Source of the DNA: Maritimibacter harenae
GTDB taxonomy: Bacteria; Pseudomonadota; Alphaproteobacteria; Rhodobacterales; Rhodobacteraceae
Direction of reading: 5' to 3'
DNA length: 51,146 bases
Assembly (NCBI RefSeq): GCF_009882975.1
Contig: NZ_WTUX01000003.1
Span: 12,527 to 63,672 of the forward strand
Shown here: in pieces, positions 3,681 to 25,299 of the stretch
Numbering within the stretch: the first letter of the stretch is position 1
Layout of the letters: each line of letters starts with the position of its first letter
Notes under the pieces: model-generated
What the model saw: only the letters and a program-made list of their open reading frames with translations
What the model was told of the DNA's origin: nothing
The model's database searches: none
Translations under genes and position numbers: made by a program

Positions 3681-3681
3681 C

Positions 3682-5295: not shown

Positions 5296-5389
5296 TCTCG
5301 TTCCTGTCTTCTGTCCCCATTTGAGGGCGAGGTGCCGTTGTTCGGCCGGTCCTTTGAAGGGTGGGTGAGGGCCTCCGGCCGGCCCCGTC

Positions 5390-5530
5390 TTATGTTTCTT
5401 GATCGCCGGCGCCGGATACTGCCTGTGTGCGCGTCACACGGAACATATCTTGGGCTCCGTGTGCGCGGGCGTTCATTCCTTTCACATGCGCGCCGCAGAA
5501 CATGTTTGAGCCAATGCGCTCCATGGCCAT
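5390..5530 (-). CDS. candidate 46-residue leader protein upstream of GMC1
   Basis: The reading frame starts MAMERIGSNMFCGAHVKGMN and ends in SGAGDQET followed by TAA. A strong Shine-Dalgarno GGAGGAG lies 8 bases before the ATG. Its start is 28 nt from the tandem IclR-type operator at 5558-5592. The other operator-linked genes begin about 20-70 nt from their operator, whereas GMC1 itself would be 263 nt away. That makes this small ORF the natural first cistron. No known family is recognised; it has one Cys and two His and no membrane segment. A GC-rich hairpin-prone stretch (5367-5388) separates it from GMC1. It could be a leader peptide, a small partner protein or chance. Confidence 0.45.
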   Translation of the reverse strand: MAMERIGSNMFCGAHVKGMNARAHGAQDMFRVTRTQAVSGAGDQET

Positions 5531-5557
5531 TTCCCCATCTCCTCCACTTGGGAGTAA

Positions 5558-5592
5558 TTCCGTTGAGTAGGCTTACATTCCGATGAGTGATT
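5558..5592. promoter_or_regulatory. tandem IclR-type operators, GMC1 side
   Basis: TTCCGTTGAGTAGGC (5558-5572) and TTCCGATGAGTGATT (5578-5592) have centres 20 bp apart. Both keep the left half TTCCG and the central T-GAGT. The right halves are degenerate compared with the consensus TTCCRTTNARTGGRA drawn from the other module A promoters. Confidence 0.6.
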
Positions 5593-5655
5593 TGCAACCC
5601 TGTTTTGATCGCTAGCGGACAGGCGCGGCGAAGTGGATATGATTTCAGAAAGTGA

Positions 5656-5670
5656 TTCCGTTCAATGGGA
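5656..5670. promoter_or_regulatory. IclR-type operator, iclR side
   Basis: TTCCGTTCAATGGGA is a near-perfect 15-bp palindrome around C5663, 113 nt before the IclR start. No good partner is visible 20 bp to either side, unlike the other sites. It probably serves autoregulation of the IclR gene. Confidence 0.65.
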
Positions 5671-5783
5671 TTGAGTGCGCCAGCAAAGACCCATAGTGTG
5701 GGGCAATGACACGGGCGAACCTCTAGTTCGCGCCGGGGCGGTGATCCGGCTCGCATAAGGTCGGCAACAGTGAAGGATAGGCG

Positions 5784-6569
5784 ATGAAAGACGATTTGCT
5801 TGGACCGGTCGTGCGCGCGTTTCGCGTCGTGAATGCCATGGCTGAGGCCGGCGAGGATCTGTCGGGAAAACAGCTATCCGATCAGCTGGAGCTGCCGCCC
5901 AGCACCGTCCATCGACTATTGCAACTGCTCGCCAAGCTGGACATCGTCGAGCAGAATCCAGACGACCACAAGTATCGCCCCGGTTCGCAGCTTTTGCGGA
6001 TCGCCTTTTCCATCGTCCGGCGCTCGGACGTGGCGAGTATGGGCGACAAGTACCTGCGTGGCATCGTCGATGAACTGAACGCGACCTGCGTCTTGTGGAT
6101 GCTGATTCCTGAGGCCGATCTGGTCGTGACGGCGGGGGTTGCCCGGTCGAGTCATCCGCTCGATTTCGTCGACATCGCCTTTGCGCCGCGTGGATTGGCA
6201 TGGGGCGCGGTGGGTCGGGCGGTGCTCGCCCATCTTCCTGACAGTGTCGTTGAGCGTGTAGCCCAGAATGCCGGACCGTCGCCGACCGGCAAGGCGCTGG
6301 AACCGCTCGACGAATTCAAGGCGAACCTCGCCCAGATCCGGGAACAGGGATATGCCTTTTCCGAGGGTCATACGATCTCGGAGGCCGTGGGCGTGGCGGT
6401 ACCGATCTTTGGTCACAACGGCACGGTTGTTGCATGTTATGCCGCAACGCTGCCGATGAGCCGCTTCAAGCCGGCAATGAAAAAAAAGATGGTCGAGGTG
6501 GTAACTGCAGGGGCCAGGAAACTATCGCTCGATCTGGGGTACAGTGGGACGTCGGCCGCGGCAAAGTGA
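5784..6569 (+). CDS. IclR-family transcriptional regulator (likely master of module A)
   Basis: The protein has 261 residues. The N-terminal winged helix-turn-helix (LSGKQLSDQLELPPSTVHRL, about 26-45) is followed by the IclR effector domain with its usual GRAVLAHLP and SEAVGVAVPIFGHNGTVVAC segments. IclR proteins bind short palindromes, usually as dimers of dimers, and respond to pathway metabolites. It is the only IclR gene in the window. A palindrome with TTCC/GGAA halves recurs at its own promoter and at every nearby catabolic promoter, usually in pairs 20 bp apart. This suggests it controls the genes from 2.4 to 25.8 kb. A terminator hairpin follows at 6588. The activator or repressor mode cannot be read from sequence. 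Confidence 0.93.
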   Translation: MKDDLLGPVVRAFRVVNAMAEAGEDLSGKQLSDQLELPPSTVHRLLQLLAKLDIVEQNPDDHKYRPGSQLLRIAFSIVRRSDVASMGDKYLRGIVDELNATCVLWMLIPEADLVVTAGVARSSHPLDFVDIAFAPRGLAWGAVGRAVLAHLPDSVVERVAQNAGPSPTGKALEPLDEFKANLAQIREQGYAFSEGHTISEAVGVAVPIFGHNGTVVACYAATLPMSRFKPAMKKKMVEVVTAGARKLSLDLGYSGTSAAAK

Positions 6570-6587
6570 TGCGCCCATGGCCAAACA

Positions 6588-6615
6588 GGCCGGGATGATC
6601 CCGGCCCGTTTTCCT
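6588..6615 (+). terminator. terminator after IclR gene, probably bidirectional
   Basis: The perfect 9-bp stem GGCCGGGAT / ATCCCGGCC has a single-base nominal loop (really a shorter stem with a larger loop) and is followed by GTTTTCCTTT. It lies between the convergent IclR and SMP-30-like genes. Confidence 0.8.
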
Positions 6616-6634
6616 TTAGCAGCCAGCGAAGGCG

Positions 6635-7711
6635 TCATTCCGCGGAAATCGTCCCGATCCTGTCAAACCGGGTAGTGCCGATCCAATATGCGTCGCCGAC
6701 CTCAACGGCCGTTGTGCCGGAGCCGAAATCCTCGTCATCGTAGGAGATGACTTCGGTCATCTCCATGCTTTCGGGGTCGATACGCAGGACCTTGAAAGGC
6801 ACGGGGCAGGCCGGTGCCGGGCTTCCCATGCATCCGGCATATTCGACCGTTTCCGCGACCCATTGGCCGGTAGCGAGGATTTCGCCGTTCTCAGCCCAGT
6901 GCAGGTTGTCGGTCAGAACCCCGGTGTCGATGACCATCGGCTCGACGCTCGACCCTTCGCCGCGCGGGATACGGTGCAAGCGGCGCGCGGCCCATTCCGC
7001 AACGTAGTATGCGTCACCCTCCGGCGAGACGAGCACGCCGTTGGGGCCCGACATGGTGGTGCCTTCGACCTCGGACCAACCGGCGTCGGCATGCCATTCA
7101 TAGACGTATCCGGTGTCGTTCACGCCCAGCAGATCCTCGACCCATTTCTCGTTGCGCGTATCGGTGAACTTGGTCGTTGCGATGCCGCCTTCGGGCAGCA
7201 CGGCCACGGCATTCAGGTTCGACCCTTCGGGCGCTACGATACAGCCCGCCCATGTCAGGGTCGGTGCGGCGCCGTCGGACAACGCGATGTCGATCACTTC
7301 GACCGTCTCGCGTCCACCATGGTTGATGGCGTAAAGCCGTGGTGTCTCGCCCGAGGTGTCCAGCGTCATGCCGTGACCCCGGAAGTCCGCCGAAGACGGC
7401 TTGCCCGGGCAATCCGAAAAGGTCGCGTCCGCGGCCGTTTCCATATCGTCAGGCCCGACCGGCTGCCACATTCTGTTGGCGCTGTTGATCAGGTAGAACA
7501 TGCCCTCGGTATCGCCCGGTCCACCGATGCGGCTGGACAGGACCCAAGTGTCATCCAGTTTGACGAGGTCTTCGGCATTGGTCGGTCCGCACAGCAGGTG
7601 GGGATCGCCGCCGCAGGCGTCGGGCATCGCCTTCTGTGCCCAGAGGGGGGCGGAAATCAGCGTCGCCGCCCCAGCTAACACTGCATTGTGGAATATGATC
7701 TTGCGTTTCAT
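6635..7711 (-). CDS. exported SMP-30/gluconolactonase-like beta-propeller protein
   Basis: The protein has 358 residues. The N-terminus is a clear Sec signal peptide (K-R-K, hydrophobic core, cleavage near APLWAQ/KAMP), so the protein should be periplasmic. The body has propeller-like repeats with SGPNGVLVSPEG, DNLHWAENGEILATG and a terminal YWIGTTRFDRIG, like SMP-30, strictosidine-synthase and paraoxonase-type six-bladed propellers. These often hydrolyse lactones or esters with a bound calcium. Several cysteines (CGG, CPG, CIV, CMG, CPV) could form disulfides. It is the last gene of the MmgE/PrpD-DUF3237 operon, with ATG 7711 behind GGGAGG. An exported hydrolase in the pathway could act on an ester or lactone before uptake. 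The substrate is not deducible. Confidence 0.75.
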   Translation of the reverse strand: MKRKIIFHNAVLAGAATLISAPLWAQKAMPDACGGDPHLLCGPTNAEDLVKLDDTWVLSSRIGGPGDTEGMFYLINSANRMWQPVGPDDMETAADATFSDCPGKPSSADFRGHGMTLDTSGETPRLYAINHGGRETVEVIDIALSDGAAPTLTWAGCIVAPEGSNLNAVAVLPEGGIATTKFTDTRNEKWVEDLLGVNDTGYVYEWHADAGWSEVEGTTMSGPNGVLVSPEGDAYYVAEWAARRLHRIPRGEGSSVEPMVIDTGVLTDNLHWAENGEILATGQWVAETVEYAGCMGSPAPACPVPFKVLRIDPESMEMTEVISYDDEDFGSGTTAVEVGDAYWIGTTRFDRIGTISAE

Positions 7712-7771
7712 ATGAACCTCCCTGTGTATGAAACGAAGCGCGCCGCACTGTGCGCGGTCTTTCCCGCGACT

Positions 7772-8260
7772 TCAGGTCACGGCGAAATAGTCGAATATCG
7801 TGTGGTCCTCACGCCGATCGGCGGTGCCGATGACCACGGTCCGAGTTAGCCAGTCGTGCGGTCCCTCGGGCGCGTCGAAAATCGGATGCAGTCGGAAATA
7901 GTATTCGGAGGGATCTAACACCTCGTTGGCGCGCAGGCGTTCGTTCACATCGGCCGTGGCGTGGCGATACCCCATGTTGTTGATGTAGATATACGTCCCA
8001 TCCTCGGCTTGAAGCACATAATGCGCGTTAAGATTTACCGTCTCGTCGCGGCGAAACAGCGGGTAGTCGCCGCCGGTTCCGCCCAGAACCCTGCCAGTCA
8101 GCCGTGGACCCGTGATCTCGCCATGGTCGATGCCTGTGAAGCCGCGGCCAACACCGGCGGGCCCCGGGCCGAACCGCTGCCGTTCCTTCATGAAGATCGT
8201 CATCCGGAAGATGAATTCGAGGCCGGGGGCTCGGAGGTCGTGGGGCATCGAGGTGGTCAT
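7772..8260 (-). CDS. DUF3237-family protein
   Basis: The protein has 162 residues and no signal peptide. It shows the DUF3237 pattern: early GRGFTGIDHGEITGPRLTGR, central RRDETVNLNAHYVLQAEDGT followed by YIYINNMGYRH, then YYFRLHPIFDAPEGPHDWLT and a final FDYFAV. The family is a small beta-barrel. My recollection, which I could not verify here, is that the phenylcoumaran decarboxylases PhcF and PhcG of Sphingobium are of this type, which would fit a lignin-dimer pathway. It lies between MmgE/PrpD and the SMP-30-like gene in one operon, with a GAAAGGA ribosome site. A decarboxylase or isomerase role is possible; DUF3237 membership itself is the firm part. Confidence 0.8.
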   Translation of the reverse strand: MTTSMPHDLRAPGLEFIFRMTIFMKERQRFGPGPAGVGRGFTGIDHGEITGPRLTGRVLGGTGGDYPLFRRDETVNLNAHYVLQAEDGTYIYINNMGYRHATADVNERLRANEVLDPSEYYFRLHPIFDAPEGPHDWLTRTVVIGTADRREDHTIFDYFAVT

Positions 8261-8283
8261 GGAGTATCCTTTCGTTTCGGGTC

Positions 8284-8304
8284 CCGCCCGGCGAAACCGG
8301 GCGG
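8284..8304 (-). other. intercistronic hairpin
   Basis: CCGCCCGG and CCGGGCGG form a perfect 8-bp stem around a 5-base loop between the MmgE/PrpD stop and the DUF3237 start. No T-run follows on the minus strand, so it is more likely an mRNA-stabilising or processing hairpin than a full terminator. Confidence 0.55.
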
Positions 8305-8315
8305 AAAAATGCGGG

Positions 8316-9686
8316 TCACGACAGGGCTTGTGTGAGGGTCGCGACGTTATCCAGTGTTTCGAGCGTTTCGATCAGCCTGATGATTTCGTCGATATCGCGG
8401 GTCTCGGCGCCACGAGCCGCATAGGCGGCACAGGCGCGGAACTTGGTCTCCAGCGCGTCCAGTGACATCGGGTTCGAAGGGTGACCGAGAGGATTGACGA
8501 CCTCGCCGGAGAGGGTGGTTCCGTCCGTCATCGTCAGCGTGACCGCGCCACGGGTCGATTGCCGATGAGTCCAGTCGTGGCGCACGTTGTAGCGTGTCGC
8601 TTCGGCCAGACGCAGGACCGACGGGTCGTTCAATGCGTCCTCGGCGAAATCTTCGAGGCCCACGCGCCCTTTGGTCAGAGCGACGCCCAGCGTGAAGGGG
8701 ATCGAGAATTTGGCGGCAGGCCCGGCCTCGGGGCGGTTACGCTGGTCGCGAGGTTCAATGATCGTCACGAAAAAGGGGCTGACGTCGACATGAACTTCGT
8801 CGATGTCGTCGGCGCTGAATTGATGTTCGCTGTGTAGGGTCAGGGCAGCATCAACGAAGGCATGGCTGCCACGGCAGGAGGGCCAGGGTTTGAAGCTGAC
8901 GCGGGTGCCTTCGAAGACCTCGCCCAATCCCTTGAGGATTGCCGCAGTGTCGAAACGTCCGCCCGCGAAGAGCGCGTAGTATCCGGCTGGCCCGTCGAAG
9001 ACGTTTTCGAAGCCGTTGACGCCGTCGCGCGCGAGGATCGCCGCCGTAACGCCGGCCTGCGCGTTGTAGGCATCACGGGTCGCGCGGAAATGCGACTTGC
9101 GGAACAGCTGCACTGCGCCACTGCCGTTTACCTGATTGAAGGTCAGGGAGAACGCCTGCTCGACCTGCTCTGCCGTCAGGCCGAGCAGCCTCGCTGATGC
9201 GGCGGTCGCACCATAGGCGCCGATCAGCGGTGTCACCAGAAACCCATGCTCCGATTCCGGACTTTCGTCAAACCCGAGCGCGATGCGGCAGGTGATATCG
9301 GCGCCGAGGGCGACGGCGTTCAGCACCTCGGCCCCGGATGCGCCGATCATCTCGCCCACGGCCAATGCGGCGGGCACGACGGCCGCGTGCGGATGAACCA
9401 GCGTTTCGTCGTGGGTGTCTTCGTAGTCGAGCGCATGGGCCAGCGCACCATTGGCGAAAGCGGCCAGCGTGACGGGCGCCTTGAAGCCATGGCCGATGAC
9501 GCTGGCATGATGCCCGCCGGCGGCGCGCGCCAGTTCGACGAAAGGCGTGGCATCCGTGGCCAGAGATCCGGCGGCGAGCATTACGCCGGTCTGATCGAGA
9601 ATACTCTGCTTGGTATGCAGCGCGTCATCCGGGGAAATCGCGCCGCCGGATGCAACATGTTCGCTGAGGATTTTGGTGAGATCCAA
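8316..9686 (-). CDS. MmgE/PrpD-family protein
   Basis: The protein has 456 residues. Family features are ANGALAHALDYEDTHDETLV (about 78-97) with HPHAAVVPAALAVGE, the FKPWPSCRGSHAFVDAAL segment (about 265-282) and a C-terminal lid domain ending in a long helix. The family includes 2-methylcitrate dehydratase and cis-aconitate decarboxylase, plus many catabolic-cluster members of unknown substrate. Start is TTG 9686: an AAGGGA ribosome site lies 8 bases ahead and the tandem operators at 9726-9760 are 40 nt upstream. It heads the operon MmgE/PrpD-DUF3237-SMP-30. No other methylcitrate-cycle gene is nearby, so a propionate role is unlikely. A hydratase or decarboxylase step on a pathway acid is the better guess. 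Confidence 0.88.
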   Translation of the reverse strand: MDLTKILSEHVASGGAISPDDALHTKQSILDQTGVMLAAGSLATDATPFVELARAAGGHHASVIGHGFKAPVTLAAFANGALAHALDYEDTHDETLVHPHAAVVPAALAVGEMIGASGAEVLNAVALGADITCRIALGFDESPESEHGFLVTPLIGAYGATAASARLLGLTAEQVEQAFSLTFNQVNGSGAVQLFRKSHFRATRDAYNAQAGVTAAILARDGVNGFENVFDGPAGYYALFAGGRFDTAAILKGLGEVFEGTRVSFKPWPSCRGSHAFVDAALTLHSEHQFSADDIDEVHVDVSPFFVTIIEPRDQRNRPEAGPAAKFSIPFTLGVALTKGRVGLEDFAEDALNDPSVLRLAEATRYNVRHDWTHRQSTRGAVTLTMTDGTTLSGEVVNPLGHPSNPMSLDALETKFRACAAYAARGAETRDIDEIIRLIETLETLDNVATLTQALS

Positions 9687-9900
9687 GCTGCGTGTCCCTT
9701 CGCCAAAGGCTCGTTCATCCGAGCTGTCCGCTGAGTGAAATCAAATCCCATTCAGTAGGAACATGTCAACATTTGTTCGTTGTTCGCGTTCGAGAATCTC
9801 CTACAAACAACGGAGAATGCGGGGTGATAGAGGACAACGCCGCTGCGGCTGTCCGTGGCGGTTCAACCTTCAATTCGTCGATAGCCTTTCCGCGAAACGC
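9687..9900. promoter_or_regulatory. promoter region of the MmgE/PrpD operon
   Basis: This 214-bp gap lies between two minus-strand operons. It holds the tandem IclR-type operators at 9726-9760 and, at 9831-9853, an imperfect hairpin (GGACA...TGTCC) that may end the NTF2-like transcript. No coding sequence is supported. Confidence 0.55.
9726..9760. promoter_or_regulatory. tandem IclR-type operators, MmgE/PrpD promoter
   Basis: GTCCGCTGAGTGAAA (9726-9740) and TCCCATTCAGTAGGA (9746-9760) have centres exactly 20 bp apart. The second is a near-palindrome. Both fit the consensus TTCCRTTNARTGGRA with two to four mismatches. Confidence 0.7.
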
Positions 9901-10563
9901 CTAGCGCCGTGTCACGGGGCGCGCGGAGGGTGAGGTCGGGGATGCGCCCGTTGTCGGATGCGGATAGTGGAACGGCACCCAGATGCGCCCAAGCTGCGGG
10001 TCGATGGGATGCGACGGTTCGGTCGGTGGCATCGCGTCATCGACCGGGATGCTGTCGTACCAGATATCGCCCGTCGTCGGGATGACGGCGTAGAAGGTAG
10101 CGGCCCACCAGACGGACTTGAGTTTCCACACTCCGCCATCCTTGACGAAGGTGTTTTCGTATACGCCTTCGGCCCAGCGAAGCCGCTCGTGGTGATCGCC
10201 CTTGCTCATCTGGATCAGCGCGCGGGCCCGGCAGGCGGCCGTGCCATCCCCGGCGAGCGTGATCACCGGCTGCAATTGCAGGTGGTTGGCCACCTGGTTC
10301 TTCTCAAGCCCCCAGATGCCAGCACCCATTGAGTCCGCGAGGAATGCGCGCATCGCATCCTTGCCGACGTATTTCCCGCGCTGTCCGATTTCGATGCTGG
10401 GCGCTTCATCGGTGAACAGATCGATGATCTCGTCCCACATGCGATTGTCGAGGTAATAGCCGTAGATGTATTCAAGCTGCGTGATCGCGTCCTTGTCGCG
10501 AAGCGAAGTGACTTCGGCTTCGAGCGCCACGATACGGTCGAGCAGGTCTGCGGTGTCGATCAT
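9901..10563 (-). CDS. NTF2-like/SnoaL-like protein, copy 1
   Basis: The protein has 220 residues. An N-terminal helix (LLDRIVALEAEVTSLRDKDA) precedes the SnoaL-like cone fold with YIYGYYLDNRMWDEIIDLFT, PSIEIGQRGKYVGKDAMRAF and GGVWKLKSVWWAATFYA. The proline-rich tail (HPIDPQLGRIWVPFHYPHP) is conserved in the copy at 27391. NTF2-fold enzymes include cofactor-free isomerases, cyclases and lyases; the diarylpropane lyase LdpA of sphingomonads is one acting on lignin dimers. ATG 10563 is chosen over upstream in-frame starts because the family motif begins soon after and it sits 22 bp behind the aldehyde dehydrogenase stop. It forms a two-gene operon with that enzyme. Exact chemistry is unknown. 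Confidence 0.82.
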   Translation of the reverse strand: MIDTADLLDRIVALEAEVTSLRDKDAITQLEYIYGYYLDNRMWDEIIDLFTDEAPSIEIGQRGKYVGKDAMRAFLADSMGAGIWGLEKNQVANHLQLQPVITLAGDGTAACRARALIQMSKGDHHERLRWAEGVYENTFVKDGGVWKLKSVWWAATFYAVIPTTGDIWYDSIPVDDAMPPTEPSHPIDPQLGRIWVPFHYPHPTTGASPTSPSARPVTRR

Positions 10564-10585
10564 GGTCTGGCCACCCATCGCGCGA

Positions 10586-12058
10586 TCAAAGCTTCTGGAC
10601 AAAGGGTTGCGGCGCGTCTTCACCGTAGTTCATCCAGACCGCCTTTTTGTGAAGGTAGTCATAGACGTGGTCCTTTCCGTTCTCGCTCCCAAGGCCCGAG
10701 CGCTTGTAACCGCCGAGCGGGGTCATGTAGCTGGCCGCGCGATACATGTTGACCCAGACCTGCCCCGCCTGAAGCGCATGGGAGAAGCGGAAAGCCCGCT
10801 GCATGTTCTGGGTCCAGACCCCCGAGGCGAGGCCATAGAGCGTGTCGTTTGCGATCGAGAGCGCGTGATCGTCGTCATCGAAGGGTATAATGGACAAGAG
10901 CGGTCCGAAGATCTCTTCCTGTGCGATACGCATGTCGTTTTTTACGCCTGTATAGATGGTCGGCTGCACGAACTGGCCATCTCCGTCGAGCGGCGTGCCG
11001 CCCACGACGCATTCTGCGCCATCGGATCGAGCGATGTCGAAGTAACTAAGAACCCGTTCGTATTGAGGGCGCGTGGCGATTGGCCCCATGTGGGTATCGG
11101 GGGCCATTGGATCGCCCAGTTTGATGCTCTTGGCAAAATCTACGAGCCTTTCGACGACCTGATCGTGGATGGAACGCTGGACCAGAAGCCGTGAACCGGC
11201 CACGCAGCTTTGCCCGCTGGCCGCGAATATGCCCGAGACCGCACCGAGGATCGCATTGTCGAGGTCGGCATCCTCGAAAATGATGTTCGGGGACTTTCCG
11301 CCCAGTTCGAGCACGGTCTTCTTGAATGTCTTGGCGGCGACTTCGTTGATCCGCTGACCGGTCGATGTGCCGCCGGTGAAGGCGACGCAGCCCACGTCAG
11401 GGTGCCCGACGAAGTAGTCGCCGATCTCGTGTCCAAACCCGCTGATCACGTTCAGGACGCCCTTGGGAAAGCCAGCGCGCTCGAACAGTTCGGCCAGCGC
11501 GAGGGTCGAGGCTGAGGTGAATTCGGACGGCTTCACGACCACGGTGCACCCCGCGGCCAGCGCAGCGCCGATCTTGCCCGCCGCGATCAAAAGCGGAGAG
11601 TTCCACGGCGTGATCACCGCGACGACGCCGATTGGTTCAAGCCGCGTGTAATTGTGGATGTTCGGCTTTTCGACCGGGATCACGGCGCCCTCGATCTTAT
11701 CCGCCATGCCGCCGTAGTAGTAATAGAACTGTGCAGTATAGCGGATTTGCAGGCTGGTCTCGTTCAAGAGCTTGCCGTTGTCGCGCGTTTCGATTTCGGC
11801 GAGCCGATCCGCCTCTTCCACGATGAGATCGCCGAGTTTGCGCAGGAGTGCGCCGCGCTGACTGGCCGACATCGCGGGCCAGTCGCCGGTCGTCAGAGCC
11901 GACTTCGCCGCAGCGACGGCAGCATCGACATCAGCGGTGGTGCCATGCGGGATAGAGGCCCAGGAGCGGCCAGTAAAAGGATTGTCCGAATCGAAGCGTT
12001 TGCCGCCGTCGGCCTCGACCCAGTTCCCGCCCACGAACATCTTGTAGTTCGCATTCAT
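10586..12058 (-). CDS. aldehyde dehydrogenase 1, NAD(P)-dependent
   Basis: The protein has 490 residues, the usual length. It carries the Rossmann cofactor segment with VAVITPWNSPLL and VVVKPSEFTS, the general base Glu in LELGGKSPN (about 255-263), the catalytic Cys in ASGQSCVAGSRL (about 289-300) and EEIFGP near 390. It oxidises an aldehyde to its acid, plausibly the product of the GMC alcohol oxidoreductase. ATG 12058 (MNANYKMFVGGNW) is chosen because the longer reading frame would run through the operator pair at 12082-12116. A GGGAG plus AAGG ribosome site precedes it. It is transcribed divergently from the enoyl-CoA hydratase and followed by NTF2-like copy 1. Confidence 0.93.
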   Translation of the reverse strand: MNANYKMFVGGNWVEADGGKRFDSDNPFTGRSWASIPHGTTADVDAAVAAAKSALTTGDWPAMSASQRGALLRKLGDLIVEEADRLAEIETRDNGKLLNETSLQIRYTAQFYYYYGGMADKIEGAVIPVEKPNIHNYTRLEPIGVVAVITPWNSPLLIAAGKIGAALAAGCTVVVKPSEFTSASTLALAELFERAGFPKGVLNVISGFGHEIGDYFVGHPDVGCVAFTGGTSTGQRINEVAAKTFKKTVLELGGKSPNIIFEDADLDNAILGAVSGIFAASGQSCVAGSRLLVQRSIHDQVVERLVDFAKSIKLGDPMAPDTHMGPIATRPQYERVLSYFDIARSDGAECVVGGTPLDGDGQFVQPTIYTGVKNDMRIAQEEIFGPLLSIIPFDDDDHALSIANDTLYGLASGVWTQNMQRAFRFSHALQAGQVWVNMYRAASYMTPLGGYKRSGLGSENGKDHVYDYLHKKAVWMNYGEDAPQPFVQKL

Positions 12059-12081
12059 CCTTGGCCACTCCCGTTCTTCAG

Positions 12082-12116
12082 TTCTATTCACTGGGATTGT
12101 GTGCCATTCAATGGTA
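12082..12116. promoter_or_regulatory. tandem IclR-type operators, shared ALDH1/ECH1 promoter
   Basis: TTCTATTCACTGGGA (12082-12096) and TGCCATTCAATGGTA (12102-12116) have centres exactly 20 bp apart. The second is palindromic except at one position pair. The pair sits in the 117-bp gap between divergent genes and may control both. Confidence 0.8.
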
Positions 12117-12175
12117 TGGAGTGTCAACCTCCCGAAAGTGCCGCACCGCGTCGCGCCGAGCAGAAAGGAACGCCC

Positions 12176-12994: not shown

Positions 12995-13015
12995 GCCGCT
13001 GTGAAGTAGTTGACA

Positions 13016-13050
13016 TTCTAGTAAATGGGAATGTATTCTATTGAGTGGAA
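13016..13050. promoter_or_regulatory. tandem IclR-type operators, CoA-ligase operon
   Basis: TTCTAGTAAATGGGA (13016-13030) and TTCTATTGAGTGGAA (13036-13050) have centres exactly 20 bp apart. The pair ends 34 nt before the CoA-ligase start and strongly matches the shared consensus. Confidence 0.8.
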
Positions 13051-13084
13051 TAATTTCTGCGCCAGCTTTGATGGAGGCTCGTCG

Positions 13085-14623: not shown

Positions 14624-14692
14624 GGGGGTCGTCCGACGCCCCGAAACCTCCAATACGTGCAGCCTGCCAGCCATGACCAGAAGGAGAAGGCC

Positions 14693-15907
14693 TTGAGCGA
14701 CGCCTATATTTTCGATGCGGTGCGCACGCCGCGCGGCAAGGGGCGCCCCGATGGTGCATTGCACAGTCTGACGCCGATCGACCTCGGCGCGCAGGTTTTG
14801 CGCGCACTCGATGCGCGGACCGGATTTTCGAAGGCCGACCCAGAGGATGTGGTCTTCGGCTGCGGCGACGGGGTCAACGATCAGGGTGCGAATATTGCCC
14901 GCTCGTCGGTTCTGCTGGCCGGGTTGCCTGACAGCATTCCGGGGTCGACCGTAAGCCGCTTTTGTTCGTCGGGCCTCGATGCGGTGAACATCGCGGCATC
15001 GAAGGTGATGTCGGGTCAGGCCGACGTGATGGTCGCCGGCGGGGTCGAGATGATGTCGATCATCCCCATTGCCGGAACCGGAGGGCCGAATGGCTCTGAC
15101 GCCTTTTTCAACAACCTGTCGTTCAACGCGCCACTTGGCATCGCTGCCGACTTGCTCGCGACCCTTCGCGGCCACACGCGTGAGGCGGTCGATGCCTATG
15201 CCGCCGAGTCTCAAGCGCGCGCAGCCCGTGCGTGGCAAGAGGATCGCTTTGCTAAATCGGTTTGTCCAGTCATCGACATTAACGATGACGTCGTGCTGGA
15301 CCGAGACGAGTATATGCGCCCCGGCACATCGGCTCAGGATCTCGCCGTACTGCGCCCGGCCTTCGAGGCTTTCGGGCAAAAGGGTGGCTACGAGGCGATC
15401 GTGCGCCAGCGCTATCCGGAAGTGCTGAACCTGTCGCACATCCACACCGCTGGCAATTCGTCAGGTATCGTGGACGGCGCGGCAGCGATGCTGATCGGCA
15501 CGCGGGAGGCGGGCGAAAAGCTTGGTCTTGCGCCGCGCGCTGTGATCCGCAGCCATGCATCGGTCGCGATGGACCCCTGCTTGATGCTTGCTTCGCCAGT
15601 GGATGCGACACAGCGCGCTCTCGCTCGAGTTGGTAAGACGCTGGCCGACGTGGACCTTTTCGAAGTGAACGAAGCCTTCGCCTCGGTTGTGCTCGATTTT
15701 CTCGCGCGAACGGGTGTCAGCCATGAGCGGGTGAACGTGAACGGTGGTGGCGTCGCGATGGGCCATCCCATTGGCGCGACCGGGGTCATCCTCGTGAACA
15801 CATTGATCGACGAAATGGAAAGGTCCGGCGCGACCAGCGGTCTGGCCACCCTTTGCGTGGGACTGGGCATGGGCGTTGCGACCTATATCGAACGTGCGGA
15901 GCATTAA
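14693..15907 (+). CDS. thiolase (acetyl-CoA acyltransferase family)
   Basis: The protein has 404 residues. The nucleophilic Cys is in STVSRFCSSGLDAVNIAA (about residue 86), the catalytic His in VNGGGVAMGHPIGATG (about 347-362), and the second Cys in ATLCVGLGMGVA at the end. Thiolases release acetyl-CoA from 3-ketoacyl-CoA. Start is TTG 14693 (LSDAYIFDAVRTPRG), because AAGGAGAAGG ends just ahead and homologous thiolases begin at this point; an ATG at 14657 would add 12 unlike residues. The FadJ-like gene follows after one base. It forms the last step of side-chain beta-oxidation in this operon. Confidence 0.93.
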   Translation: MSDAYIFDAVRTPRGKGRPDGALHSLTPIDLGAQVLRALDARTGFSKADPEDVVFGCGDGVNDQGANIARSSVLLAGLPDSIPGSTVSRFCSSGLDAVNIAASKVMSGQADVMVAGGVEMMSIIPIAGTGGPNGSDAFFNNLSFNAPLGIAADLLATLRGHTREAVDAYAAESQARAARAWQEDRFAKSVCPVIDINDDVVLDRDEYMRPGTSAQDLAVLRPAFEAFGQKGGYEAIVRQRYPEVLNLSHIHTAGNSSGIVDGAAAMLIGTREAGEKLGLAPRAVIRSHASVAMDPCLMLASPVDATQRALARVGKTLADVDLFEVNEAFASVVLDFLARTGVSHERVNVNGGGVAMGHPIGATGVILVNTLIDEMERSGATSGLATLCVGLGMGVATYIERAEH

Positions 15908-15908
15908 C

Positions 15909-18014
15909 ATGATCGAATGTGATATCGGAACAGACGGCATCGCCATCCTGACCGTCGCGACACCTGGCCCGGTCAATGCCCTGTCCAGAGCGTTCAACGT
16001 GGCGTTCGATGAGGCGGTGGAGGCGGTCCTGGCCGACGACTTGGTTCGGGCCGTCATCGTCACCTCGTCCAAGAACGACTTTGCCATCGGGGGCGATCTG
16101 GACGAGTTGCGAGCTGCGATGACGCCTGCCGCCGTGGCTCAAATCGTCGATCCGTTCAATGCCGCCCTGAGGCGGCTTGAGACTTGCGGGAAACCGGTCG
16201 TCGCGGCCATGACCGGTTCGGCGCTAGGCGGGGGCTATGAGCTCGCGCTGGCCTGTAATCACCGCATCGCCGCCGACCGCCCCCGCGCGGTCTTTGGCCT
16301 TCCCGAAGCGGGGCTCGGTCTCATGCCCGGCGCAGGTGGCACGCAAAGATTGCCGCGGCTGATCGGGATCGCGCCCGCGGCCGATCTGATGCTCCGCGGG
16401 CGGGTTTTGTCCGGGGCCGACGCGCTCAAGGCCGGTCTGATCGACGAGTTGGTTGCACCTGAGGACTTGATCCCGGCCGCGCGCCGCTGGCTGGACAGTG
16501 CGCCCGAGCCGACCCAGCCGTGGGATCGGCACGGCTTTTCCGCCCCCGGCGACGATCCGAATTCCCGGCCCGGCCGCATGTTCTTTGCCGCGCAATGGGC
16601 CAAGGTCCGGGCGAGGTCCGCCGGAACCAACGCGGCTGCCATGGCCATCCTGCATGTGTTGCATCACGGTATGGAACGGCGGCTCGACCCCGCGCTGATC
16701 GTCGAACGTCGGCAGTTCTTGCGGATTGCCGCATCGCTGGAGGCCAAGAATACGGTTCGGTCCCTGTTCTACGGCTTGCGCGCTGCTGCGCCGAAACCCG
16801 AAACCGCGGTTGGGCACGATCTGCGCAAGCTCGGTGTGGTTGGTGGCGGTGCGATGGGGTGCGGCATTGCATTTTCGGCGGCGCGTGCCGGGTACGACGT
16901 GGCTCTGATCGATGTTTCGGACGAGCAGGCGCGGGCTGCTCTTGCGCGCATCGGCAAGATCGGTGCGCGACAGGTGGAACGCGGACACCTGACGCATGGA
17001 GAGTGCGACACGTTGCTTGCCAGGATCAGCACGGGCGTTGACTACGCCGCGTTGAGCGACGCCGATCTCGCGGTCGAAGCGGTGTTCGAGCAGCCCGCGC
17101 TGAAACGCGACGTTATCGCGCGGATGGCTGCTGCGCTACCTGCAGGGGCAACGATTGCCTCCAACACCTCGACCATTCCGATTGCGCAACTGGCTCGTGA
17201 TCTGGACGACCCCGGACGCATGGTGGGCATGCACTTCTTCGCACCGGTCGAAACCATGAAGCTGCTCGAAATCATTCATGGCCCCGACAGCACCGCCCGT
17301 GCCCGAGCGGATGCGCAGACACTGGCCAAGGACCTGCGCAAAGCGGTAATCGTGGTAAACGATGGCCTCGGGTTCTACACCAGCCGGCTCGTGTCGAGCC
17401 TATCGAGCGAGGCGATGACGATGGTCGCGGAAGGTATCGCGCCGCAGATCGCGGATCGAATGATGACCAACGCGGGCTTTGCCATCGGGCCGATGTCGCT
17501 GGCCGATCTGACCACCCTTCCGCTGCTGCGCGACATCATGCTGTCGATGAGCGGCGAAGGTCGCCCGGTGTCGATGACCGGCTCTCGCGCCGTCGAGGCG
17601 CTGGAGGCTATGGTCGCCGCCGGTCGCATCGGCAAGGCAAGCGGCGCGGGGATTTATGACTACGACCCCGCCAACGGCCAGCGGCTCTGGCCCGGGCTTG
17701 GTGGCCTGTTTGTGCCCGCGACGCTCGCCCCCGAGTTGATTGCGCAGCGGCTCTTGAACACCCAGACGCTGGAAGCGGTGCGCGCCCTTGAGGATGGGAC
17801 GGTCACCGATCCGTTGACGGCGGATATGGCTGCGGTGACAGGCTGGGCCTATCCTGCACATCTGGGCGGCCCGTTTGCATATGTCGACACGGTTGGCGCA
17901 GCGACCTTTGTTCGGGAGTGCGACACGCTCGCGGATCGGTTCGGCGAACGCTTTGCCGTGCCCGGGACGCTACGCGACATGGCGCGGTCCTCGGCACGGT
18001 TTCACACGATCTGA
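15909..18014 (+). CDS. FadJ/FadB-like bifunctional enoyl-CoA hydratase / 3-hydroxyacyl-CoA dehydrogenase
   Basis: The protein has 701 residues. The N-terminal crotonase domain has GSALGGGYELALACNHRIAA (about 109-128) and the two expected acidic positions around LPEAGLGLMPGAGGTQRLPR. The NAD-binding dehydrogenase starts near 315 (VVGGGAMGCGIAFSAARAGY), with the catalytic HFFAPVETMKLLEIIHG (about 440-456) and two C-terminal helical domains. This is the peroxisomal-multifunctional-enzyme-like single-chain form. It hydrates a 2-enoyl-CoA and oxidises the 3-hydroxy product. It is separated from the thiolase by one base and followed 55 bp later by the quinone reductase. Confidence 0.93.
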   Translation: MIECDIGTDGIAILTVATPGPVNALSRAFNVAFDEAVEAVLADDLVRAVIVTSSKNDFAIGGDLDELRAAMTPAAVAQIVDPFNAALRRLETCGKPVVAAMTGSALGGGYELALACNHRIAADRPRAVFGLPEAGLGLMPGAGGTQRLPRLIGIAPAADLMLRGRVLSGADALKAGLIDELVAPEDLIPAARRWLDSAPEPTQPWDRHGFSAPGDDPNSRPGRMFFAAQWAKVRARSAGTNAAAMAILHVLHHGMERRLDPALIVERRQFLRIAASLEAKNTVRSLFYGLRAAAPKPETAVGHDLRKLGVVGGGAMGCGIAFSAARAGYDVALIDVSDEQARAALARIGKIGARQVERGHLTHGECDTLLARISTGVDYAALSDADLAVEAVFEQPALKRDVIARMAAALPAGATIASNTSTIPIAQLARDLDDPGRMVGMHFFAPVETMKLLEIIHGPDSTARARADAQTLAKDLRKAVIVVNDGLGFYTSRLVSSLSSEAMTMVAEGIAPQIADRMMTNAGFAIGPMSLADLTTLPLLRDIMLSMSGEGRPVSMTGSRAVEALEAMVAAGRIGKASGAGIYDYDPANGQRLWPGLGGLFVPATLAPELIAQRLLNTQTLEAVRALEDGTVTDPLTADMAAVTGWAYPAHLGGPFAYVDTVGAATFVRECDTLADRFGERFAVPGTLRDMARSSARFHTI

Positions 18015-18069
18015 GCGCTGGTCGCCGGATCGGCGGCCAGCAAATACCGAAGTTGAGAGGAGACGGGAA

Positions 18070-19086
18070 ATGAAAGCTGCAATCGTCGATCCGATGGGAT
18101 TGGAGAACCTTCACATCGTGGATCTGCCGGAACCACAGGCGGGGCCGGGAGAAGTCGTCGTTGCGATGAAGGCGGCGAGCCTGAACTTCCGCGACCTGCT
18201 TGCAGTCAAGGGCGGCTACGGTTCAATGCAAAAGCAGGAAAAGCTGATCCCGCTCTCGGACGGCGCGGGCGAAGTGATCGCGGTTGGCCCCGGCGTCAGT
18301 GCGTGGAAGGCCGGAGACCGGGTCTTGGGCTGCTTTTTCCCTGACTGGCAGGCCGGTCCGCTGCGCCGAGAGGCGGTGGGCACCGATCTGGGAGGCGGCT
18401 ATGACGGGGTTGCGGTCGAGAAGCGGGTGTTTCGGTCAGATGCGCTCGTGCCGCTGCCCGACGATCTGAGCTTTGTCGAAGGGGCCGCGCTGCCGTGCGC
18501 GGCGGCGACAGCCTGGAATGCCGTCATCGAAAAAGGCGGTGTGGGTCCGGGCGACAGGGTCCTCATCCAAGGCACGGGCGGGGTGTCGCTTTTTGCGCTT
18601 CAATTCGCCAAGATGGCGGGGGCCGAGGTGTTTGCAATTTCCTCCAGCGCCGAAAAGCTCGCCCTGATGCAGGCGCAGGGCGCTCAGCATCTGGTGAACT
18701 ACAAGGACGAACCGGAGTGGGGCAAAGCTGTCATGAAACTGAGCCGCGGGCGCGGCATGACACATGCCATCGAAATCGGTGGAGCGGAAACGCTGAAGCA
18801 AACGATGCGTTCGATGGCGCCTGGCGGTTTCATCGCCATGATCGGTATGGTGACAGGACCCAAGGCCGAGATGAACCTGCCGATCATCGCGATGCAGGAA
18901 TTCAAGCTGGAAGGCGCGACCGCAGGGAGCCGGCTTTCCCTTCAGCGTCTCGTGGATGCGATGGCCGCGAACGGGGTCAAGCCGGTGATCGAGGACAAAC
19001 GGTTCGGTCTCGACGATCTGAAGGCCGGATTGGAGTACCTTGCTCGCGGCGAACATGTGGGCAAGGTCTGCATAGATATTGGATGA
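18070..19086 (+). CDS. quinone oxidoreductase-like (zinc-free MDR family) protein
   Basis: The protein has 338 residues of the medium-chain dehydrogenase/reductase fold. The N-terminal GroES-like domain has SLNFRDLLAVKGGY, and the NADPH-binding motif reads VLIQGTGGVSLFALQFAKMA (about 160-179). It lacks the zinc-ligand Cys/His set of alcohol dehydrogenases, matching quinone oxidoreductases and enoyl reductases. In this operon it could reduce an enoyl-CoA or an alpha,beta-unsaturated ketone side chain. A GAGGAGACGGGA ribosome site precedes ATG 18070. Its stop abuts the thioesterase start. Confidence 0.88.
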   Translation: MKAAIVDPMGLENLHIVDLPEPQAGPGEVVVAMKAASLNFRDLLAVKGGYGSMQKQEKLIPLSDGAGEVIAVGPGVSAWKAGDRVLGCFFPDWQAGPLRREAVGTDLGGGYDGVAVEKRVFRSDALVPLPDDLSFVEGAALPCAAATAWNAVIEKGGVGPGDRVLIQGTGGVSLFALQFAKMAGAEVFAISSSAEKLALMQAQGAQHLVNYKDEPEWGKAVMKLSRGRGMTHAIEIGGAETLKQTMRSMAPGGFIAMIGMVTGPKAEMNLPIIAMQEFKLEGATAGSRLSLQRLVDAMAANGVKPVIEDKRFGLDDLKAGLEYLARGEHVGKVCIDIG

Positions 19087-19545
19087 ATGATGTCCAGCGA
19101 CACGCCACAGCCTGACAATCCCGATCACGCGTTGGTTCTCAACTTTATCGCCGGGTCGGGTGAGCCAGTGCCACTGGACACGAGTCCCCTGCTCCAAGCG
19201 CTGAACGGGGTCCTTCTGGTGCATGATCCCGACACGCTCAGCCTCACTTTCGAGTTCGCGCCCGGCCCGTTGTTTCGTCAAGGGGCGGGGTTCGTGCAAG
19301 GGGGGGCGATTGCCGCGATGCTGGACTTTGCGATGGCCTTTGCCGGAATGGCGGTTATCCCGCCGGACAAAAGCGTGACGACTACCGCGATGACTTCCAG
19401 CTTTCATGCAGGGGCACGCGCGGAGCGTTACATCGTCATCGGGCGGATCGACAAGCCGGGGCGGCGCTTCCTGTTCGCCTCGGCGACAATTGAGGCGGAG
19501 GGGCGCGTCATCGCGCAGGCCACGTCGGGGCTGCTTGTAATTTAG
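19087..19545 (+). CDS. PaaI-family hotdog thioesterase
   Basis: The protein has 152 residues with a single hotdog domain. The hallmark GAGFVQGGAIAAMLDFAMAF (about 67-86) places the catalytic Asp/helix region as in PaaI and related acyl-CoA thioesterases, and the end TIEAEGRVIAQATSGLLVI is the standard last strand. It hydrolyses acyl- or aroyl-CoA and could release the shortened aromatic acid after beta-oxidation or rescue trapped CoA. It starts directly at the preceding stop (TGAATG), is the last gene of the operon, and its final 4 bases overlap the convergent enoyl-CoA hydratase 2. Confidence 0.88.
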   Translation: MMSSDTPQPDNPDHALVLNFIAGSGEPVPLDTSPLLQALNGVLLVHDPDTLSLTFEFAPGPLFRQGAGFVQGGAIAAMLDFAMAFAGMAVIPPDKSVTTTAMTSSFHAGARAERYIVIGRIDKPGRRFLFASATIEAEGRVIAQATSGLLVI

Positions 19546-20312
19546 GGCAGGTTGCTGAAATCGGGCCGCTTCTTGGCAAAGAAAGCGCGCAGGCCCTCGG
19601 CGGCTTCAGGGGAGTCGCCAATCGCGATCGCTGACTTGAGTGCTTGTGCGGTCGCCTCGGTTTCCGGAATGTGAAGTGCGGCACGCATTTCGTTCTTGAT
19701 CGTGGCGAGCGTCGCCTTCGGCCCCATGGCAAGTTTGCGCGCCAGTGCGCGCGCCGCGTCCAGCGCTTCGCCCTGCGCTGTGCGACGGGACAGAAGGCCC
19801 CAGTTCATCGCCGTCTCGGCATCAATCTCGCGCCCCGTGAGGATCAGGTCCAAGGCCCGGTCATAGCCGATCCTGCGCGGCAAGCGGACGGTGCCGCCCA
19901 AGGCCGGGAACACGCCGAGGCGTACCTCGGGAAAGGAAAAGCGGGCACTTTCCGAGGCCACAATGAAATCGCAGCACAGAACCAGCTCGGCCCCGCCGCC
20001 CATCGCTAGCCCTTCAACCGCCGCGATGGTCGGTATCGCCTGCGCGGCCAAGCGTTCGAACGCCACCGACTGCGCGGAGAGCAGCGCGCCCGGCCCATTG
20101 CTCGCGCCGCGTAGCTCCGCCAGTTCCGCAACATCCGACCCGGCGGAAAAGCCACCATTTGCCCCTGTCACGATGATGACTCGGCAGTCTGCGAGTGCGG
20201 CGTCGCCAAGTTTTTCTGCAAGAGCGCGTGCCATGTCGCTGTCGATCGCGTTCATCGGCGGACGGTTCAATTCAAGGGTCATGACGCCCTCGTCAATCGT
20301 CGTTTCAATCAT
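19542..20312 (-). CDS. enoyl-CoA hydratase/isomerase family protein 2
   Basis: The protein has 256 residues with a crotonase fold: NRPPMNAIDSDMARAL, GANGGFSAGSDVAELAELRG (about 50-69), VEGLAMGGGAELVLCCDF (about 98-115) and FSFPEVRLGVFPALGGTVRL with one of the two catalytic acids (the Glu of PEV). The end AFFAKKRPDFSNLP is typical. It is convergent with the thioesterase (4-bp overlap) and divergent from the BKACE gene across an operator pair at 20363-20397. It may act on a different intermediate from hydratase 1 or the fused hydratase. Confidence 0.9.
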   Translation of the reverse strand: MIETTIDEGVMTLELNRPPMNAIDSDMARALAEKLGDAALADCRVIIVTGANGGFSAGSDVAELAELRGASNGPGALLSAQSVAFERLAAQAIPTIAAVEGLAMGGGAELVLCCDFIVASESARFSFPEVRLGVFPALGGTVRLPRRIGYDRALDLILTGREIDAETAMNWGLLSRRTAQGEALDAARALARKLAMGPKATLATIKNEMRAALHIPETEATAQALKSAIAIGDSPEAAEGLRAFFAKKRPDFSNLP

Positions 20313-20362
20313 TCGGGTCAGCCTCTCCTGACGTGCCCTTTGCCAGGGTGATTTTTTGAGTG

Positions 20363-20397
20363 TTCCGTTGAACGGAATGTGTTGCCACTGAGCGGAT
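20363..20397. promoter_or_regulatory. tandem IclR-type operators, ECH2/BKACE divergent promoter
   Basis: TTCCGTTGAACGGAA (20363-20377) is a perfect 15-bp palindrome. TGCCACTGAGCGGAT (20383-20397) is a partial copy. Centres are exactly 20 bp apart. The pair lies in the gap between divergent genes. Confidence 0.85.
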
Positions 20398-20467
20398 TAT
20401 TATGCAAGACTTCCGTCGAAGCAAGACAGATACTGGGCGACTCGCTGCCCGGGCGAGGGAGAGATAC

Positions 20468-21349
20468 ATGTCGAAATCGACCATCATCACATGCGCTGTC
20501 ACCGGAGCGGGCGACACGCCGGGAAAGAACCCGGCGGTGCCAGTGACGCCTGAGGAAATCGCGACCTCCTCCATCGACGCGGCCAAGGCTGGGGCCGCGA
20601 TCCTGCATATCCATGTGCGTGATCCCGAGACCGGCCGGGCCACGGGCGATCCGGCGCTGTTTCGCGAGGTGGTCGAACGGATTCGCGACAGCGGATGCGA
20701 CGCGATCCTGAACCTCACCACGGGCGAGGGCGGGATGCTGGAGATCGGTGTACGGACCTTTGGCGGCAATATCCTTGCCGAGGAGGTGAGCACGCCCGAA
20801 CAACGCTTTGCCCATGTGGCCGACACCCAGCCCGAGATGTGTACCATCGACATGGGGACGATGAATGTGGGCCACAACATATTTGTAAACACCACCGCCG
20901 ATGTGACCCGGCTGGCCGAGTTGAGCCTCGAGGCCGGGGTCATGCCGGAGCTTGAGGTCTTTGACGCGGGCCAGATACAATTTTCGAAAGAGCTTCTTGC
21001 CGCGGGAAAGGTAAAGGGGCCGGCCTTTTTTCAGTTGTGTCTTGGCGTGCCAGGCGGTAGCCCGGCGACGGCTGAAACGCTGGTCTACATGAAGTCGCTT
21101 TTGCCGCCGGACAGCGAATGGGCGGCCTTCGGCCTCGGGCCGCAGCAGTTCCCGATGGTGGCGCAATGCGTCATCTCTGGCGGTCACGCGCGGGTCGGGT
21201 TGGAGGACAACCTGTATCTGGAAAGCGGCAAGCTGGCCCCATCGAACGCGGCCATGGTCGAGAAGGCCGGTCAGATCATCACGCTTTTGGGCAACAATGT
21301 CGCGTCGCCCGAAGAGGCCCGCGCCATCTTGTCCATGACGGCCGTCTAG
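20468..21349 (+). CDS. BKACE-family beta-keto acid cleavage enzyme (DUF849)
   Basis: The protein has 293 residues forming a TIM barrel. The typical opening IITCAVTGAGDTPGKNPAVP is followed by metal-ligand HIHVRDPETGRATGD (His-X-His, about 48-62), LNLTTGEGG, PELEVFDAGQI and the end segment GGHARVGLEDNLYL. BKACE enzymes condense a beta-keto acid with acetyl-CoA to give acetoacetate plus a new acyl-CoA; Kce of lysine fermentation is the type member. ATG 20468 is preceded by GAGGGAGAG; the longer frame would start nearly in the operator. The SDR follows after 9 bp. In this setting it could finish a beta-keto acid side chain that bypasses the thiolase. Confidence 0.92.
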   Translation: MSKSTIITCAVTGAGDTPGKNPAVPVTPEEIATSSIDAAKAGAAILHIHVRDPETGRATGDPALFREVVERIRDSGCDAILNLTTGEGGMLEIGVRTFGGNILAEEVSTPEQRFAHVADTQPEMCTIDMGTMNVGHNIFVNTTADVTRLAELSLEAGVMPELEVFDAGQIQFSKELLAAGKVKGPAFFQLCLGVPGGSPATAETLVYMKSLLPPDSEWAAFGLGPQQFPMVAQCVISGGHARVGLEDNLYLESGKLAPSNAAMVEKAGQIITLLGNNVASPEEARAILSMTAV

Positions 21350-21358
21350 GGGCAGGCG

Positions 21359-22186
21359 ATGTCGTCCACGGCACAGACTGCCATTGGGCCCGAGCGCAAG
21401 GCGGTGATCGTCGGCGGGGCGGGCGGGATCGGTTTCGCCTTTGCCCGCTTGCTCTATGCATCCGGGGCGACCGTCGCGCTACTGGATCTTGATGCCCAGC
21501 GGCTTGAGCAGGCCGCGTCCGACCTTGGCTCGGTCGGCGACGGTCAGATCTTGATGCGTGCGCTCGACATTTCGGACCCCGAGGCGGTTCAGGCGGCGCG
21601 GGACGCAATAACGGCGCAAATCGGCCCGCCCGATCTGCTGGTAAACGCAGCCGGGCTTCTGATCCGCGGCGTTCCCGTGGCCGAGATCCCGCATGAGGCA
21701 TGGCGCCGTGTTCTGGACGTCAATCTGCTTGGGGTCGTGAACGCGGTGCGGAGCTTCTTGCCGGACCTGAAGCAGGCAGAAGGGCCGGCGCATATCATAA
21801 CCGTCGCTTCGATTTCCGGGTTCTTTGCAGGGGACCGCCGAATCGGTGCCTATGCCACCTCGAAATTCGCGGTCGTCGGCTACAGTGAGGCGCTCGCCGA
21901 AGAACTGACCGGGTCGAACGTCACCATCACCCTCGTGGCGCCAGGTCAGGTCGCGACCGATTTCTACCGGAACTCGGCCCCGGCGACCCAAAGATTCGGT
22001 ATGGCGGGCCGTATGACGGAAACGCCGGAAGACATACGCAACGGTATGGACCCCGCGCGCGTCGCATCGCTGGCGCTGGACGCTGCCAGTCGTGGTCAGC
22101 TCTACGCCATGACCCACGCGGACCTGCGTCCCCTCGTCGAAGCGCGACAGGCAAGAGTGCTCTCGGGGTTCGAGGGGCGTTCATGA
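21359..22186 (+). CDS. short-chain dehydrogenase/reductase
   Basis: The protein has 275 residues of the classical SDR fold: cofactor motif VGGAGGIGFAFARL (about 18-31) with Asp after the second strand (DLDAQRL) suggesting NAD preference, NAAG near 102, Ser in VASISGFF, and the catalytic YATSK (about 161-165). It converts a secondary alcohol to a ketone or the reverse. The overall layout is like that of lignin C-alpha dehydrogenases such as LigD, but so is that of many SDRs. Paired with BKACE it may make the keto group that BKACE needs. It is the second gene of the BKACE operon. Confidence 0.9.
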   Translation: MSSTAQTAIGPERKAVIVGGAGGIGFAFARLLYASGATVALLDLDAQRLEQAASDLGSVGDGQILMRALDISDPEAVQAARDAITAQIGPPDLLVNAAGLLIRGVPVAEIPHEAWRRVLDVNLLGVVNAVRSFLPDLKQAEGPAHIITVASISGFFAGDRRIGAYATSKFAVVGYSEALAEELTGSNVTITLVAPGQVATDFYRNSAPATQRFGMAGRMTETPEDIRNGMDPARVASLALDAASRGQLYAMTHADLRPLVEARQARVLSGFEGRS

Positions 22187-22252
22187 TCGGCTCCACCCAC
22201 CAAATCACCAGGCCCTTACCGGATAATGATTGCACGAACAGGTCCGCCCGGA

Positions 22253-22287
22253 TACTGTTTAGTAGAATTAAATTCCATTTAATGGAA
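22253..22287. promoter_or_regulatory. tandem IclR-type operators, TRAP transporter promoter
   Basis: TACTGTTTAGTAGAA (22253-22267) and the perfect palindrome TTCCATTTAATGGAA (22273-22287) have centres exactly 20 bp apart, just 20 nt before the GTG start of the TRAP operon. This ties substrate uptake to the same regulator. Confidence 0.85.
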
Positions 22288-22307
22288 GTTCGCAGAGGGG
22301 GAGCTTT

Positions 22308-24157: not shown

Positions 24158-24181
24158 ATCCAAACCAGAGGAGGAAAAACA

Positions 24182-25288: not shown

Positions 25289-25299
25289 TCTCTCCTCCC

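Follow-up and report, generated by a model that had tools for sequence, protein, structure and literature searches.

The window considered here, a 51,146-nucleotide stretch of the Maritimibacter harenae genome (contig NZ_WTUX01000003.1, positions 12,527 to 63,672), carries a gene for an IclR-family regulator (iclR, 5784-6569, plus strand, 261 aa) amid catabolic and transport genes, the promoter gaps of which hold 15-bp palindromes arranged mostly in pairs. The six tandem pairs, together with a lone palindrome, are predicted from the sequence to be operators of this regulator, which would bind them as cooperative tetramers and repress the cluster, and a probability of roughly 0.8 is given to that reading.

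The gene cluster and its regulator

The genes of the predicted regulon, named from Pfam matches, lie on both sides of iclR. On the minus strand, a GMC oxidoreductase gene (GMC1, 3682-5295) and a gene for a GcvT-fold O-demethylase-like protein (2406-3680) form one unit (2406-5295) that diverges from iclR. Beyond iclR, and also on the minus strand, are a unit encoding MmgE/PrpD, DUF3237 and SGL-like proteins (6635-9686; the SGL match is below cut-off) and a unit of aldehyde dehydrogenase (ALDH1) and a SnoaL_4 protein (9901-12127 by longest open reading frames, the ALDH1 start being probably lower, near 12060, by eye). The plus strand carries the enoyl-CoA hydratase gene ECH1 (12176-12994; ECH_1, 3.1e-54) and a unit for CoA ligase, thiolase, an ECH/3HCDH fusion, alcohol dehydrogenase and a 4HBT thioesterase (13085-19545), with the start ATG chosen by eye in both cases. 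A second hydratase gene, ECH2 (19542-20312, minus strand), is followed on the plus strand by BKACE and SDR genes (20402-22186) and by the TRAP transporter genes for DctQ, DctM and DctP together with a SnoaL_4 gene (22308-25771).

The regulator has an N-terminal HTH_IclR domain (PF09339, 1.9e-13, 50.4 bits against a cut-off of 22) and a C-terminal IclR_C effector domain (PF01614, 8.7e-16, residues 139-248). It falls below the cut-off of all seven NCBIfam models that it matched for named IclR subfamilies (BhcR, KdgR, PcaR/PcaU/PobR, IclR and AllR), the best being BhcR with 90.5 of 350 bits. The iclR gene is the only one of the cluster and the six pairs surround it, with three sites (5558, 5578 and 5656) inside its own promoter region, the 5295-5784 gap, an arrangement of the autoregulatory type.

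Predicted operator sites

All 13 coordinates listed in the earlier note are palindrome-like 15-mers, but the consensus TTCCRTTNARTGGRA, which they had been said to fit, was too strict as written, and is matched exactly only at 5656 and 22273. Counting the better strand, at most one mismatch is found in four of the 13 sites, at most two in nine, at most three in 12 and at most four in all of them; the pattern common to all 13 is NNCYRNTNANYRNNN. The arrangement described in that note proved sound. Twelve sites do form six pairs, each spaced at exactly 20 bp centre to centre, which is about two DNA helix turns, and the sites at 20363 and 22273 are perfect palindromes, centre base excepted. The sites are confined to the gene gaps of what was termed module A, provided that the ALDH1 and CoA-ligase starts are set by eye downstream of the longest-frame start, and modules B to D are without a clear full copy, having no pair and only a few single matches with three mismatches (28812, 37208, 40902 and 44929).

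The pairs, to which no strand is assigned, were scored with a position weight matrix (PWM) and with R1, a 35-bp sequence-only model built from these same pairs. Pair 1 (sites at 5558 and 5578; 5558-5592) lies in the divergent GMC1/iclR gap and is the weakest by matrix (PWM 14.4 and 9.4; R1 expectation value, E, of 8.5e-4), with the single predicted site (5656-5670; exact consensus match, PWM 20.2) on the iclR side of the same gap. Pair 2 (9726 and 9746; 9726-9760) is upstream of the MmgE/PrpD operon (PWM 13.1 and 18.1; E=0.0015), pair 3 (12082 and 12102; 12082-12116) is in the divergent ALDH1/ECH1 gap (18.1 and 18.5; E=5.4e-4) and pair 4 (13016 and 13036; 13016-13050) precedes the CoA-ligase operon (17.2 and 21.9; E=7.6e-4). 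Pair 5 (20363 and 20383; 20363-20397) occupies the divergent gap between ECH2 and BKACE-SDR (20.3 and 13.1; E=0.0018), and pair 6 (22253 and 22273; 22253-22287) is upstream of the TRAP operon (16.3 and 23.0; E=1.5e-4). Pairs 6 and 4 are the strongest by matrix. No seventh pair was found in the window by PWM scan, and no partner for the site at 5656 was seen at distances of 18-22, 30-32 or 40-42 bp, its separations to the pair 1 sites being 78 and 98 bp. A candidate at 1365 (PWM 13.1) was dropped, with nothing above 1.0 at those same partner distances.

Chance expectation and occurrence in the genome

For TTCCRTTNARTGGRA with at most three mismatches, the window yields 28 rows, where 100 shuffles average 13.25 +/- 3.99 (maximum 25). 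With a symmetric consensus and at most two mismatches there are eight matches, among which the sole spacing in the 10-40 range is 20 (three pairs). Allowing four mismatches gives 60 matches (shuffle mean 54), with five pairs at 20 and one at 25, while 30 shuffles gave a mean of 0.13 pairs at 20 and at most two at any spacing. When each pair was left out in turn, scored by a matrix built from the remaining sites and ranked among the window positions outside the training set, the held-out pair came first in six of six cases, pair 1 included, with pair scores of 20.0-36.9 against a runner-up of at most 12.3.

When the 4.25-Mb genome was scanned with R1 (E<=10), each of the nine matches fell on one of the six pairs, which were hit on a single strand or on both, and nothing else was matched, a result that demonstrates exclusivity rather than discovery because the model was trained on these pairs. 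A single-site scan with at most two mismatches gave 43 rows, where the reversed pattern gave 17. Of the 43, 14 (nine distinct sites) are inside the window, including all six rows with no or one mismatch, and 29 are elsewhere. Two single palindromes in the same genome (G000:C51:149783, locus L011, and G000:C59:200303, locus L020) match with at most two mismatches on both strands, and are not near any listed iclR-like place.

Recurrence at other iclR loci

In a search of DNA only across 390 genomes of the order (E<=0.05), run under stricter filters and with 17 candidates scored in each genome, R1 had further matches in only two genomes, G092 and G347, in both cases less than 3 kb from an iclR gene. 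The pair in G092 is about 200 bp from iclR and has a divergent ABC substrate-binding gene on its other side, and that in G347 lies between a CoA-ligase gene and a same-strand run of dctP-dctQ-dctM-iclR, about 2.9 kb from iclR.

Pairs at 20 bp were also seen at loci chosen by IclR homology, being present in five of the first ten (L052, L053, L056, L057 and L059), one of them weak. A larger set of 60 loci (1.13 Mb), made up of 51 iclR-homologue loci and nine of the first ten (L056 being the same as L066), was scored with a higher cut, and six loci carried a 20-bp pair, that of L077 being weak and off-consensus. Pair counts at 19, 20 and 21 bp were 2, 6 and 3, and other spacings from 14 to 60 gave none to two (two each at 34 and 59) except 39, with three; ten shuffles had none at 20. 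The best single site scored at least 15 in 18 of the 60 loci, several of which are near-duplicates; for 15 of these 18 loci its distance from iclR was under 2 kb, against an expected 25% or so. A score of 15 is also attained by the best of 20 block shuffles in 42 of the 60 loci, so single-site scores alone mean little here, and the comparison relied solely on how close the site lies to iclR.

Close orthologues of the regulator were found neither in the seven other genomes of the genus (E<=1e-20) nor in a single-protein scan of genome contigs, and the best identities elsewhere were 30-38% over the matched segment. A parallel in gene content is a plasmid cluster of Salipiger abyssi (L052), where, as in the window, an iclR gene (34% identical) accompanies TRAP, SDR, SMP-30, GMC and ALDH genes. 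A 20-bp pair stands ahead of the gene run with ALDH, GMC, SDR and TRAP, which ends beside iclR. Unlike the window, this cluster has a P450 gene, while genes for CoA ligase and thiolase are absent from its annotated stretch. In Neorhizobium, the pair lies between a TctC gene and a two-gene pair, the second member of which is MmgE/PrpD.

Two further observations concern single sites. The most similar IclR segment in the 51-locus homologue search (38%) is on a contig labelled Streptomyces hygroscopicus (L065), and upstream of this segment are a site identical to window 20363-20377 and a second strong site (9657-9671 and 9865-9879), 208 bp apart and not 20. In Novosphingobium, homologues at L054:12771, L067:10771 and L068:10772 each have a single TTCCGTATAATGGAA directly after iclR, and the L054 copy precedes a TonB-dependent receptor gene.

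Promoter overlap and proposed mechanism

Three pairs (2, 3 and 4) have a TTGACA within 5 nt. These are three of the nine copies in the window, where only 0.06 would be expected to fall within 15 nt of a pair, and each reads toward a target gene. At pair 2 the hexamer (9764-9769, minus strand) is followed after 18 nt by TTTGAT, and at pair 3 (12122-12127, minus strand) there is no clear -10 element. Pair 4 spans TTGACA (13010), an 18-nt spacer and TATTCT, so that one of its palindromes falls inside the spacer and its partner covers most of the -10. Repressors that keep RNA polymerase off a promoter usually bind in such a position, and the TTGACA adjoining three pairs suggests promoter occlusion.

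It may be inferred from these features that the local IclR binds the sites, as a tetramer, and represses. One dimer would occupy each 15-bp palindrome, and the two dimers, 20 bp apart on the same helix face, would be in contact as a tetramer, so that binding is proposed to be cooperative. Without inducer, IclR would cover promoter elements of several operons of the cluster, with joint repression of uptake (TRAP) and of catabolism (CoA ligase, hydratases, thiolase, BKACE, and aldehyde and alcohol oxidation). Relief of repression would come from a pathway compound, perhaps, at a guess, an aromatic acid or its CoA-stage product.

Alternative readings

Several observations weigh against cooperative repression by the local IclR. 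At the promoters, a -35/-10 combination of 10/12 is found only at pairs 2 and 4, the other pairs reaching at most 8; the region 5200-22400 has no excess of promoter-like sites (5, where shuffles give 3.5); and pair 1 sits 263 bp upstream of the GMC start, which is far for simple occlusion. Among the 60 homologue loci, 54 have no 20-bp pair above the cut, and in only two of the six paired loci (L064 and L066) is the pair less than 2 kb from iclR, the other four being at 5.8-10.3 kb. Where identity is 30% or higher (18 loci), seven loci lack any site scoring at least 15. The iclR gene of G347 was found by the window IclR only below the tblastn cut used, and other homologues do find it. The genome has nine other iclR-like places (E<=0.001). 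Finally, by our own alignment of the recognition helix, the window sites do not show the weak preference for C at motif position 10 that has been published for His32.

The same IclR may bind the sites as an activator or dual regulator, in place of a repressor, which is considered unlikely. Both kinds of regulator are known in the family (PMC8222616), pair 1 is well upstream of its gene and four of the six pairs have no full -35/-10 match beside them. Repression is favoured by the position of pairs 2, 3 and 4 directly downstream of a TTGACA reading toward the target gene, and by the weak -10 at 18 nt for pairs 2 and 4.

It is very unlikely that independent dimers occupy the two palindromes and that their 20-bp separation was inherited with a common ancestral promoter segment and does not reflect tetramer contact. 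Promoters in one cluster could indeed stem from duplication, but the pairs differ from one another: when the six are aligned, only seven of 35 columns are invariant, none of them in the six-base flanks or spacer. Moreover, the spacing recurs in loci with regulators 26-36% identical, and tandem spacing is found in 94 published groups (PMC8222616).

A shade less probable again is that the sites are operators of another regulator, for example one encoded at the nine further iclR-like places or by one of the three LysR genes of the window (1557-2399, 25796-26677 and 31199-32104). Neither the nine 3.2-3.8-kb iclR-like loci nor the modules holding the LysR genes showed such a pair, whereas other genomes again have pairs accompanying iclR genes, and sites are present in the iclR promoter gap itself. 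The local IclR regulon proposed in the earlier note is supported by exclusivity in the genome, the pair-free state of the other iclR loci, recurrence near iclR elsewhere and agreement with the motif and tandem spacing published for the family (PMC8222616). That AT-rich promoter sequence gave rise to the pattern by chance, for which the literal consensus being exact at only two of 13 sites might speak, is hardly credible given the shuffles (0.13 against five pairs at 20), the first rank of all six held-out pairs, and an R1 exclusive to the six pairs in the genome, with only two further genomes among 390, both near iclR.

The predicted pathway

A sharply bounded regulon indicates which genes of the 51-kb stretch probably constitute one pathway. 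At a low-confidence guess, the cluster may break down a methoxylated plant aromatic via a CoA ester, as suggested by the LigM/DesA-like protein, SnoaL_4, TRAP, CoA ligase, hydratases, thiolase and BKACE. For the protein encoded at 2406-3680 the best NCBIfam models are DesA and LigM, both below cut-off, and a LigM structure is matched at 1.1e-57. The SnoaL_4 protein 9901-10623, the only one of three compared, has as its nearest solved chains 8abt, 8abu and 8abv, which are presumably lignin-dimer lyases of the LdpA kind. Against a methoxylated aromatic stands the GMC protein, which scores above cut-off for PRK02106, a broad subfamily of choline dehydrogenases, and not for betA. It is quite unlikely, although conceivable, that one regulator with six tetramer operators of graded strength switches a whole transport-to-acetyl-CoA pathway in ordered sequence, that the substrate is an undescribed plant aromatic, probably methoxylated, and that the pathway itself (GMC, ALDH, SnoaL_4, MmgE/PrpD, BKACE and a folate-dependent O-demethylase) is new.

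The other SnoaL_4 proteins of the window are at 25301-25771 and 27376-28056. A second set of GMC oxidoreductase, ALDH and GcvT-fold O-demethylase-like genes (28053-31147 and 33252-34574) is near LysR genes and without IclR pairs, and apparently represents parallel enzymes under other control.

Comparison with known IclR systems

The motif class, the 18-22 nt tandems and the tetramer reading are all present in the study of Suvorova and Gelfand (2021; PMC8222616), and the architecture of the window is therefore not new: motif, spacing and tetramer interpretation are established for the IclR family, and the window, by comparison with the text of that study, is a new instance. Tandem palindromes are reported there in 94 orthologous groups, their centres being separated by 18-22 nt and most often by 19-21 nt, and the spacing is taken, again by inference, as tetramer binding on one DNA face. 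The family is described as including activators and dual regulators, with aromatic catabolism among the usual targets and DctPQM among the co-regulated transporters. With this architecture established, the value of the window lies mainly in naming pathway members and in providing a sensor for the inducer, and the cluster also offers several ready promoters for probing cooperative IclR binding at one fixed spacing.

By eye, the window motif as a whole resembles that of the group 1 subgroup WTT-11-AAW in PMC8222616, an odd-length palindrome TTYCRYW3RYGRAA (WTTYCRYW3RYGRAAW), and the six pairs at exactly 20 fall within the tandem range of 18-22 nt, 5656 being single. It differs from that consensus in an invariant C3, C or T at position 4 (published as Y3 C4) and a free centre, TNA and not WWW. 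The outer boxes and N7 spacing are shared with the GenR site of Corynebacterium glutamicum, ATTCC-N7(5)-GGAAT (PMC8222616, Table 1), although GenR belongs to another phylum and has other targets. For TtgV of Pseudomonas putida, an IclR-family protein with a solved DNA complex (PDB 2XRO, as cited in PMC8222616), the comparison covered the recognition helix, whose Ser, Thr and Arg contact residues are also present in the window IclR by our own alignment, but TtgV is an efflux regulator. The portions of PMC5343134, PMC12607616 and PMC12997858 considered contain nothing on the window motif. Although its motif has a GCAACG core, unlike that of the window, PheR of Sphingobium (PMC13273656) is, like the proposed window IclR, an IclR repressor of an aromatic operon, with a footprint of 44 bp and a Hill coefficient of 1.95.

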